From contig CALCCA010000112.1 of NCBI GenBank assembly GCA_937899725.1, positions 1 through 64,000 of the forward strand: a DNA stretch of 64,000 nt, read 5' to 3'. The notes below the pieces were generated by a model. The model did not search any database and was not told where the DNA came from. It saw only the letters and a program-made list of their open reading frames with translations. Position numbers and translations under genes: made by a program. Positions 48,131 to 55,033 of the stretch are shown piece after piece. Each line of letters opens with the position of its first letter. Position 1 is the stretch's first letter. Source of the stretch: an uncultured Halomicronema sp. (GTDB lineage: Bacteria > Cyanobacteriota > Cyanobacteriia > Phormidesmidales > Phormidesmidaceae).

Positions 48131-48574
48131 ATGAAGCTAACGAAGCGAGGGCATTACAGCGTTAAAGCGCTCTTGGATTTAAGTTTGCAATCGGCTAGCG
48201 GTCTCGCCTCAGTGAACGCGATCGCCCAGCGGCAAGATTTACCTGCGCCTTATTTAGAGAAACTGCTGATTGAGCTACGGCGAGCGAATTTGGTGGTCTC
48301 TGTGCGGGGGGCGCAGGGCGGCTATCGGCTGGCCCGGACCGCGGCCAATATTTCCCTCGGTGAAATCTTAGAGGCCGTGGGTGAGACTGTCGCGCCGCTG
48401 CCTCACTATCAGCCTGATCTAGCCCAGGCCGAAGATTGGGTGACTTTCAGCATTTGGAAACGGCTGCACGAAAAGATGAAGGCGGCGCTCTTTAGCATTT
48501 CGCTAGAAGACCTGTACTACGATGCCCGCAGCTGGCAGGCCGCTCAAGGAGAAAATGCCAGCTTTGTGGTGTAG
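48131..48574 (+). CDS. Rrf2-family transcriptional regulator without cysteines
   Basis: The 147-residue protein has the Rrf2 winged helix: MKLTKRGHYSVKALLDL, IAQRQDLPAPYLEKLL and VSVRGAQGGYRLAR. It contains no cysteine at all, so it cannot bind the Fe-S cluster used by IscR and NsrR. It may sense something else or act constitutively. The 3' end overlaps cbiB by 20 bp, making a coupled pair. Confidence 0.9.
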   Translation: MKLTKRGHYSVKALLDLSLQSASGLASVNAIAQRQDLPAPYLEKLLIELRRANLVVSVRGAQGGYRLARTAANISLGEILEAVGETVAPLPHYQPDLAQAEDWVTFSIWKRLHEKMKAALFSISLEDLYYDARSWQAAQGENASFVV

Positions 48575-51944: not shown

Positions 51945-54485
51945 TCAAATACCAACGACTAGGCGCCATAGTCCGACCGTCAAACCCAAAATAGCCAGAT
52001 GCTGAGGCAGCATGAGCCGCAGGGGGTAGCGAGCAATTTTTTGCGTCAGGATGATCGACAGCAGCGCTCCGACGAGTAGCGCCGTCCCCTGCAAAAAGGC
52101 AATGACTGCTGGGTGCGCGACCACCACCGGTAGGCTCACACCCGATAGACCAATCGTGGCCGCCCCCACAGGCAACACCCGCCCTGCTTCGGTCAAAAAT
52201 AACCGCAGATAGTGCGCCAGGGTGCCGGTCAGCACCAGCGGCAAATAACCATAGGCCAGCTCGACAAAGGGACGGGGCGATCGCGTCACGGCCAGCCGAT
52301 GCATCAGATGGAGCAAGGCTTGCGCCGCCAAGGGAATCAGGGCGGGTAGGCTCAAAAGGGCGATCGCCACGCCGCCGTGCACCCAAAAGTTTGCCAAATC
52401 AAGCGGCCAGTCAAGCGCGGTCAGCAGCTCCGGCAGGCGATGCAAAAACACCGCATCGAGCAGCAGCAACAGCAACGCCACCTCGTAGGCGCGGGGTGTA
52501 TGGGTCGTCCATAGCTCAATGCCTGGTGGCCGTAGGTTGAACTCAACTGAGCGATGCGGGCAAGCTTTGAGACAGGTCATGCAGAGCACGCAGTCGCGAT
52601 TTTCTTCTAGCTGCGCGGGATGGGAATAAATCGGGCAACCGCCAGTGTCCTGACCTTCGCCTTTGGCTGGCCCCCCTTTGTAGCACTGGTAGGTGGTGCA
52701 TTCAGCCGAACAGGTGCCTTGCTGTGCCCGCAGCTCCGTCATCGAGAGCTTGGCATACAGGCCATTCATGCCGCCGATGGGGCAGAGATAGCGACACCAA
52801 AAGCGCCGCTCAAAAATTTGAGAAAAGACGATCGCCCCGGCGGTAATCAACAGCAGCAGACAGGATGACAGATAGGCCGTGTTTTCCAAATTCCACAGCT
52901 CTTCCCACAGCAGAATGAGGGCAAATAGACCAAACAAAAACCAGCCGCCCCAGCGATCCGCTTCTTCACGGGGCCAGCGTTTGAGCGATCGCGGCCAGAG
53001 CTTGAGCGACAGGGTTTGCAGCGCTTCGCCGTAAATCATAAACGGACACACCGCACACCAAGCGCGCCCCAAAAACGGGAACACCAGCAGAATTAGCGGC
53101 CACCACCAAGCCCAAAACAAATTGAGCGCCACGTTGTGATCGCGCGTTTGCGGCCCCAAAAACAGCATCGCGTTGAAGAGGGCAAAGGCGGTGAGCGTTA
53201 GCCCATAGTTGATGCGATCGGGCCACCAAGCACTGCGCAAAAAGCGCCGCAGATTGGGGTAGGCATTGAGCAAATTGGTGCGAAACTGTTTCTTTTTGCT
53301 CTGAGACGGCCAGAGAATTTCTTCGGTCAGCAGACACCCGACGGCCACCTGCGAGAGCGCTCGCGACACCAGACTCTCCAGCTCGCGCAAATTGTTGGGA
53401 AAGTCGTAAGCCTGCAGGCGACGAATCGCCTCAGGGGTCACGCCAATTCGCCGCTGGCCTTTGGCTCGGCTAATCAGGCTGATGTAGTACTTGACATAGT
53501 CTTCAATGTCGGCTTTGCGCACCCGCAGGGGAGGGACTTTAATTTGGCTATTCACCACTGCGCTCAGTGTCGGCACGGGTCGTTCTGCAATCAAAATAAA
53601 ACGGGCAGCGCTGGAGCGCTCAGGAGCAGACTCGGTGGAATCGTGGGGAATAGGCCGATAGGTGCCGGTCTTGAGCAGGGTGGCAATCGCCCCCACCAGA
53701 TTTGACGGCAACTCCCCCACATTGTTTAGCACTAGCGTGCCGCGATCCAGCGCTTCGAGCAGACTGGGCTTGCCCCCCGCGCGACCAAACAGTTCCGCGC
53801 CACTGGTTTGCAGGCGCGCACAGTCAACCTGGATGATCGGTTGTCGCCGATAGACCGACCCGTAATGGATGAGCGCGGCAATATTGTCTTTTTCGACCCC
53901 TGGCTCCCCAAAAATCAGCACCGAGCCACAGCCATCAGGGCAATCTTTAAACGCCTCACGAATCTGCTGTCGCAGTCGGGTGGCATAGCGACTGCGACCA
54001 ATCACCCCCCGCCGCGCTTTGGTCACCAGGTACGGCCGCAAAACATCCTGGCGCTCTTGCTCATAGGTCAACTGTGAGGTGACCTGCCGCAGTTCTGCCG
54101 TCACCTGCTGCGAAAACACCTGAATCACGTCGGGATGCGCTGCTGTGAAAACCTGAAACCGTTCCGCTGAGAGATACCAAACTTCAGAGTCACAGAGAGA
54201 TAGAACCGTCTTTTCGACGGGCTCATCTAGCAGCAGCGATCGCAAGTTGAGCACCGAACCCGGCAAAAAGCTTCTCGGTAAGCTAGCTCCAGGCTCATGC
54301 TCTAGTCGCCCCGACACCAAGATGTACAGCCCCGTTGGTGCCGTCTCAGCCACCACCACCACTTGCTCGGGCGGCACGTGACGAGTCTCCAGCTGTTCAC
54401 TCAGGGCCGTTAGGGTCGCCTGACTCAACCCGCTGAGGGCCGATCGCTCCTGCAGCCAGGTTGCCCGCGCTTCCACCGTCATCAT
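51945..54485 (-). CDS. Fusion of CNB domain, degenerate sigma-54-type AAA+ domain and membrane polyferredoxin
   Basis: The 846-residue protein has a cyclic-nucleotide-binding fold (about 15-140), then an AAA+ module related to NtrC-type activators (about 160-395): Walker A-like GEPGVEKDN (193), sensor region ADIEDYVKYYI and FPNNLRELESLVSRAL. The Walker B acids are replaced by Asn (LVLNN, 251-255). The GAFTGA loop and the C-terminal HTH are missing. Then come NapH/CcoG-like membrane helices with WCAVCP (near 476) and WCRYLCP (near 563), two Cys clusters (592/596/601/617 and 632/635/638/642, the latter CxxCxxCxxxCP), and five or more C-terminal helices. It may couple a ligand signal to membrane electron transfer. 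Confidence 0.88.
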   Translation of the reverse strand: MMTVEARATWLQERSALSGLSQATLTALSEQLETRHVPPEQVVVVAETAPTGLYILVSGRLEHEPGASLPRSFLPGSVLNLRSLLLDEPVEKTVLSLCDSEVWYLSAERFQVFTAAHPDVIQVFSQQVTAELRQVTSQLTYEQERQDVLRPYLVTKARRGVIGRSRYATRLRQQIREAFKDCPDGCGSVLIFGEPGVEKDNIAALIHYGSVYRRQPIIQVDCARLQTSGAELFGRAGGKPSLLEALDRGTLVLNNVGELPSNLVGAIATLLKTGTYRPIPHDSTESAPERSSAARFILIAERPVPTLSAVVNSQIKVPPLRVRKADIEDYVKYYISLISRAKGQRRIGVTPEAIRRLQAYDFPNNLRELESLVSRALSQVAVGCLLTEEILWPSQSKKKQFRTNLLNAYPNLRRFLRSAWWPDRINYGLTLTAFALFNAMLFLGPQTRDHNVALNLFWAWWWPLILLVFPFLGRAWCAVCPFMIYGEALQTLSLKLWPRSLKRWPREEADRWGGWFLFGLFALILLWEELWNLENTAYLSSCLLLLITAGAIVFSQIFERRFWCRYLCPIGGMNGLYAKLSMTELRAQQGTCSAECTTYQCYKGGPAKGEGQDTGGCPIYSHPAQLEENRDCVLCMTCLKACPHRSVEFNLRPPGIELWTTHTPRAYEVALLLLLLDAVFLHRLPELLTALDWPLDLANFWVHGGVAIALLSLPALIPLAAQALLHLMHRLAVTRSPRPFVELAYGYLPLVLTGTLAHYLRLFLTEAGRVLPVGAATIGLSGVSLPVVVAHPAVIAFLQGTALLVGALLSIILTQKIARYPLRLMLPQHLAILGLTVGLWRLVVGI

Positions 54486-55033
54486 GATGAGTCTGCCCCC
54501 TTTGCCGTAATCTGAGGTCGTCAGACTTATTGGCGTGTCCCCATGATAAATCTCTTCGATCTGTGGGTTCCCTGTGCGTTACTTGCGTTAATCCTCGGGG
54601 CTGCCATCTACTTTGCGCGGCTGTAGACTAACTCAAAATCCGGTAGCTCACGCTCCGCAGTCGTCAGGATTGAGGGCACCTGTCATAGGACGATCTAGGG
54701 CGCGGGTCTGGGGGTGCGATCGCCGCCGCTCTATGCCATCGTCCCGCTTCCCACGAACGACAAAGATATCAACAAAAGCTGATGCATTTACCGTATAGGG
54801 TTTTCTCTATGCATGACTGAGGTACTGCCGTTTTCTGACCTGAGATGAAGAGCCTACGGGTTAGAAGGAAAAGGTTTCAGAACGCTGCTCAAACTTCCAT
54901 GAGTAGCTTAAACAGGCAATATGCTTTAGGTTCACAACAACAATATTTTGTGTTGCAGGCTATTGACTTTGGCGTAGTACCATGGACTTTAAGATTGACA
55001 GTATCATAAGCTAGATGCAAGGAAAATATAGCT
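54486..55033. other. Intergenic region upstream of ado
   Basis: This 548-bp region between divergent genes holds a possible 27-codon ORF (54543-54626). Near the ado start there is a TTGACT (54963-54968) with ACTTTA 17 bp on, a possible but weak promoter. The ado ribosome site AAGGAA (55019-55024) is clear. Confidence 0.4.
54543..54626 (+). CDS. Possible small single-helix membrane protein
   Basis: A 27-codon ORF encodes a short polar start (MINLFD) and one hydrophobic helix ending in Arg-Leu (LWVPCALLALILGAAIYFAR). Size and shape match the tiny subunits of photosystems, cytochrome b6f and NDH-1, but I do not recognise it as any of them. No strong ribosome site precedes it. The support is only composition and position. 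Confidence 0.3.
   Translation: MINLFDLWVPCALLALILGAAIYFARL

Follow-up and report, generated by a model that had tools for sequence, protein, structure and literature searches.

A degenerate NtrC-type AAA+ domain fused to a membrane iron-sulphur module in cyanobacteria: a candidate regulated electron-transfer protein

What is the function of a protein that carries the ATPase domain of a sigma-54 activator on a membrane-integral iron-sulphur module, in a cell that has no sigma-54? This question is raised by a gene in the window, the stretch of 64,000 nucleotides from an uncultured Halomicronema sp. that was analysed here. A sequence-only reading had described its product as a cNMP-type sensor, a degenerate AAA+ domain and a NapH/CcoG-like module in one polypeptide, recycled as an intramolecular switch on an electron-transfer unit. 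Here, we follow this description through domain profiles, structure matches, residue conservation, phylogeny and gene context.

One reading frame, three modules

The gene is a single open reading frame with an ATG start and zero internal stops (Table 1), present in one copy in the host genome. The encoded protein of 846 amino acids consists of a CRP/CNB-like fold, followed by an NtrC-type AAA+ domain with its lid and a nine-helix membrane module with 12 cysteines. Homologues that are 57-80% identical align over the full length and in a single frame in dozens of genera, which excludes a frameshift as the origin of the fusion. Also, no internal frameshift was found in the window ORF. The idea that two separate genes were read as one by error could draw on a divergent relative (L097:3039-5761) in which the AAA region is broken between overlapping ORFs of 424 and 513 aa, with cysK downstream. 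But dozens of genera have the fusion as a single frame, which refutes the idea for the window protein and leaves it a negligible probability. Thus, the single polypeptide postulated from the sequence was confirmed.

Four Pfam domains scored above their cut-offs: cNMP_binding (PF00027; 34.6 bits, cut-off 27.5), Sigma54_activat (PF00158; 42.4 bits, cut-off 20.2), AAA_lid_14 (PF25601; 41.3 bits, cut-off 27) and two copies of Fer4_5 (35.1 bits, cut-off 22). Fer4 (aa 631-644) was the only one of the listed Pfam domains below cut-off. For the middle of the protein, NorR, NtrX, NifA and similar NCBIfam profiles ranked top, all of them far under their own cut-offs. The mean identity of the homologues to the window protein is 89.5% in the ferredoxin-like segment, 77% in helices 1-4, 62% in the lid, 58% in helices 5-9, 57% in the AAA+ core and 37% in the CNB-like domain. 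This gradient shows the tightest constraint on the electron-transfer part and a variable head. A possible ORF of 27 amino acids with a single helix (MINLFDLWVPCALLALILGAAIYFARL) is located at 54544-54627 on the plus strand, within the divergent intergenic region.

Table 1 Coordinates of the gene and of the protein features it encodes (window positions)
Feature	Position	Strand	Basis
Whole gene, 846 aa	51945..54485	-	ORF; full-length homologues
CRP/CNB-like domain, aa 35-114; phosphate-binding cassette residues not conserved	54144..54383	-	PF00027, alignment
NtrC-type AAA+ core, aa 163-284; GAFTGA loop deleted inside, Arg-finger segment gone just after	53634..53999	-	Pfam, structure matches, alignment
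Walker A GEPGVEKD, aa 193-200	53886..53909	-	Residue conservation, n=59
Walker B LVLNN, aa 251-255	53721..53735	-	Residue conservation, n=59
AAA+ lid, aa 321-397	53295..53525	-	PF25601
Membrane helices 1-4 with C477xxC480P and C564xxxC568P, aa 402-580	52746..53282	-	Pfam, helix prediction
Cytosolic ferredoxin-like segment, aa 581-655; C592, C596, C601, C617 and C632, C635, C638, C642	52521..52745	-	Alignment
Membrane helices 5-9, aa 656-844	51954..52520	-	Helix prediction; counterpart region in Deinococcus and haloarchaeal stand-alone proteins

The head and the membrane iron-sulphur module

The fold of the head is that of a bacterial enhancer-binding protein (Foldseek and VIA-align, Z ~20 to NtrC1/FleQ). 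Its catalytic equipment is gone, and this is a conserved state. In clade A, the group of the window protein, the P-loop reads GEPGL(E/G)KDN (n=59), with G193, E194, G196, K199 and D200 in all 59 sequences and N201 in 58. Both Walker B acids are replaced by asparagine (N254 in 58 of 59, N255 in 59 of 59); E301 (58/59) and R321 (59/59) are conserved as well. Alignment with a true activator of this phylum revealed that the GAFTGA loop is deleted in all clades and that the Arg-finger segment FRxDLxYRL is missing. Pfam found no HTH in the 846 residues, the lid running directly into the first membrane helix. The P-loop of clade B is closer to the standard (PGSGKT in most), and its Walker B reads D-N. 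An AAA+ domain that is still an active ATPase through non-standard catalytic residues, as a motor for the membrane module, could be argued from the invariant P-loop lysine and from the conserved E301 and R321, but the replacement of both Walker B acids and the deletion of the Arg-finger segment make this improbable: no alternative catalytic residues were found in the domain, since the Arg-finger segment is missing as well.

Sigma-54 (PF04552) was not found in the host genome, and two short marginal matches were obtained among 145 genomes, so that rpoN is essentially absent; a published survey of 29 cyanobacteria agrees (PMC3162934). This bears out the earlier statements on the degenerate ATPase and on the missing sigma factor. 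An active sigma-54 activator is ruled out by the lost GAFTGA loop, the lost Arg-finger segment and the absence of rpoN. Two relatives have different heads. In one genus of clade A (L198:7643-11008) the AAA+ domains form a tandem pair, the first with a near-normal P-loop (GEAGVGK) and an aspartate at the first Walker B position. In a non-photosynthetic relative within the phylum (L098:8249-10210, genome G106) two AAA+ domains resemble genuine activators, the first with GAYTGA. G106 was considered as a donor by way of genuine activators and was discarded, as PF04552 found no rpoN in its genome.

The N-terminal domain has the CNB fold, and the proposal of a cNMP-type sensor was not upheld. When the cassette columns were assigned by eye from the CRP pattern, the glutamate (position 77) was found in 1 of 59 sequences and the arginine (position 92) in 12; at the matching place clade B has Gly-Asp/Glu and no arginine. 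The domain is missing in clade C and in a few members of clade A that have kept the AAA+ domain and the membrane module. Because the cassette residues are mostly lacking and the segment is the least conserved and dispensable, we do not call it a cyclic-nucleotide sensor. Slr0593 from Synechocystis, described as a 'cAMP binding membrane protein', may be an orthologue.

In the membrane module, all 12 cysteines given in Table 1 are invariant in 59 sequences of three clades, and these include the membrane motifs CxxCP (C477/C480) and CxxxCP (C564/C568). The NapH profile TIGR02163 covers aa 471-650 with an E value of 9e-13 and 48.3 bits (cut-off 213), and NF007013 gave 37.5 bits (cut-off 234). Together with the Fer4_5 matches, this supports the earlier assignment to a NapH/NosR/CcoG-like Fe-S module. 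Predicted helices and loop charges place the cysteine-rich loops on the side of the AAA+ head, i.e. in the cytosol. The Fe-S segment was modelled at pLDDT <50, and the nine-helix module gave no Foldseek match to solved structures at E <= 0.001 (best Z 5.8). The module also occurs without a head: a stand-alone protein from Deinococcus (WP_027463891.1) is 30% identical over 97% of the module, C-terminal helices included, and all 12 cysteines are recognisable by eye. On a plasmid of Deinococcus ficus (L201:7042-9323) the gene of the stand-alone module overlaps by 4 bases the gene for an exported, His-rich, membrane-anchored protein. On a plasmid of Sulfurovum mangrovi (L205:6028-11258) a 4Fe-4S membrane protein is encoded in an operon with 2-hydroxyacyl-CoA dehydratase-like, activase and TauE/SafE exporter genes.

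Distribution and gene neighbourhoods

The same domain order is widespread in cyanobacteria, as the sequence-only reading had proposed to check. At a threshold of E <= 1e-60, which takes in clades A, B and C, the family was found in 263 of 390 sampled Cyanobacteriia genomes and in 124 of 159 genera; relatives come from Halomicronema (80%), Hydrococcus, Moorena, Nostoc, Fischerella, Calothrix, Acaryochloris and many others. The tree has three groups, A, the sister group B (~40% identical) and C, the latter being family f20 from small genomes. B and C are each set off by a fully supported branch, the branch separating A is weak (54), and the long branches of B and C call for caution. A literature search for this domain combination revealed no study of the family.

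In the window, the neighbours are genes for a GG-reductase-like FAD protein, ADO, AAR and accA, a set that was not common to the other clade A loci fetched. A conserved clade A operon was sought in 49 plus 80 loci, and none was found beyond local synteny, mostly in Nostocales; an example is an ORF of 112 amino acids downstream in 15 loci. The electron partner can thus not be read from the context. A general link to ADO/AAR was dismissed: among six close relatives ADO was ~0.6 kb away in G490 only, and it was nearby in none of the clade A loci fetched. The same holds for a link of clade A to cysK, which was near two copies only (L077 and L086), about the chance expectation by our estimate. The suggested co-occurrence with quinol or nitrogen-oxide reductases did not show up, and strong linkage exists only in the sister clade, with cysK and with sulphide/low-oxygen genes. 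Elsewhere in the window (48131-48574), a small ORF that looks, by eye, like a regulator of the Rrf2 kind overlaps the start of the cobD/cbiB gene.

Clade B is different in this respect. Of 26 loci fetched, 25 (including L089, L179-L197, L199 and L200) remained after L198 was assigned to clade A. In 16 of them cysK follows downstream on the same strand, no more than two genes away; seven of the 16 have a gap of <20 bases or an overlap. Genes for rhodanese, a psbA copy, a Rieske petC copy, cytochrome bd, FeoB, NrdG, heme oxygenase, DsbA and NifX-like proteins recur around the clade B gene, part of these names being given by eye from sequence. In L089, a type III SQR-like gene and an HdrABC-like operon lead directly into the clade B gene. 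Two plasmids, one from Aulosira laxa and one from Pseudanabaena galeata, again carry the pair with cysK together with copies of psbA and petC; that of P. galeata has an FAD oxidoreductase and an ArsR regulator in addition. This ensemble resembles the association of sqr, arsR and low-oxygen psbA described for Geitlerinema (PMC5061849); neither 'cysteine' nor 'cyclic nucleotide' occurs in the text of that paper. Clade B most likely serves sulphide/low-oxygen metabolism, beside cysteine synthase. For one copy from clade B the annotation reads 'nitrogen assimilation regulatory protein', a label that the tests for an enhancer-binding protein do not support. A second ADO-like gene is present in L089 (451-1149) and, by clustering, in L179, L181 and L185.

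Proposed function and relation to known systems

We consider the family to be membrane proteins of the NapH/NosR/CcoG type that face the cytosol and transfer electrons under regulation, with a pseudo-ATPase as scaffold, and assign this reading a probability of about 0.5. Regulated electron transfer is probable because a worn-out ATPase domain is joined to a conserved Fe-S carrier and the sister clade resides in sulphide/low-oxygen islands with cysK. According to this model, the cysteines would coordinate two cubane-type [4Fe-4S] clusters and form two pairs at the membrane edge, all on the cytosolic side, and electrons would pass via clusters and pairs between a donor in the cytosol and the quinone pool, in analogy to NapH. 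The head would be a relic of a sigma-54 activator that has kept the AAA+ fold, and its P-loop lysine may still hold a nucleotide; the residues for hydrolysis, sigma-54 remodelling or DNA binding are gone. We infer that the AAA+ domain oligomerises and, as a nucleotide-occupancy scaffold, sets the exchange of electrons between the Fe-S part and ferredoxin or quinone, with the variable and sometimes lost CNB-like domain tuning this gating. Clade B, with its P-loop PGSGKT, would perform gated electron transfer under sulphide exposure or low oxygen, and clade A would be the general version. The earlier notion of an intramolecular switch on an electron-transfer unit fits the conservation gradient and is plausible.

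The main rival has the flow of information reversed: the Fe-S module would sense the redox state or the plastoquinone pool, and the AAA/CNB head would be the output, acting on RNA polymerase with a sigma-70-type factor or on another protein. The head does come from a family of transcription activators, and extreme conservation of the Fe-S part could suit a sensor too. Among the nearest solved structures is VpsR, an NtrC-like regulator that is reported to work with sigma-70 and also has an asparagine at the position of the first Walker B acid. However, the protein has no HTH or other DNA-binding domain and no GAFTGA loop, and evolution is slower in the Fe-S part than in the head, so we regard a sensor of this kind as unlikely. 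Somewhat less likely still is a reductase or assembly factor for a metal or cofactor, as CcoG (copper) or NosR, in which the electrons reduce a metal or mature an enzyme. CcoG and NosR have the same class of module, the Deinococcus module gene overlaps that of a His-rich protein, one clade B gene and one stand-alone module from haloarchaea each have a chromate transporter gene nearby, and arsenic genes lie near another stand-alone module. But in cyanobacteria no conserved metal-handling neighbour and no metal-enzyme partner was found.

The membrane Fe-S protein is retained in three quarters of the sampled cyanobacterial genera with a ferredoxin segment that is ~90% conserved, and is therefore probably part of the core redox physiology. 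Gating of the electrons by the dead AAA+ head, if it indeed takes place, would be a clear example of a transcription ATPase put to use in a different process. To our knowledge, such gating is a mode of control not known for NapH/NosR-type carriers. The modules are all known singly, the combination was not found in the literature searched, and there is a fair chance that the mode of control is new. The sister clade with cysK offers an entry point to the cyanobacterial handling of sulphide and anoxia, with a bearing on early-Earth photosynthesis. More tentative is the wider picture of an ancient, phylum-wide class in which a dead ring of sigma-54-activator AAA+ domains is a nucleotide-occupancy gate on an Fe-S carrier in the absence of sigma-54, with a general copy and a mobile sister for sulphide/low oxygen beside cysteine synthase.

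With NtrC, NifA, FleQ and PspF the window protein has the AAA+ core and lid in common, by sequence and by fold, but it has lost GAFTGA, Walker B acids, Arg-finger segment and HTH, and its cell has no sigma-54. VpsR (PDB 7v2b; E 1.7e-16) is likewise a degenerate NtrC-type AAA+ protein outside the usual sigma-54 role; it is a soluble, DNA-binding c-di-GMP regulator, whereas the window protein is a membrane Fe-S protein. The best solved match for aa 14-126 is mycobacterial Cmr (PDB 5w5b; E 2e-4); unlike Cmr and other CRP-fold proteins, the window protein has neither a DNA-binding domain nor the phosphate-binding cassette. The stand-alone 4Fe-4S proteins of Deinococcus and haloarchaea have no AAA+/CNB head; the haloarchaeal protein shares the full module including the C-terminal helices but not several of the cysteines. 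Compared with NapH, NosR and CcoG (RdxA), the window protein has about five extra C-terminal helices and the N-terminal AAA+/CNB head, it stays far below the NapH cut-off (48 versus 213 bits), and no Nap, Nos or cbb3 genes were seen beside this family. The features that it shares with NapH, NosR, CcoG (RdxA) and YccM are CxxCP and CxxxCP at the cytosolic edge of the membrane and cytosolic 4Fe-4S ligands.
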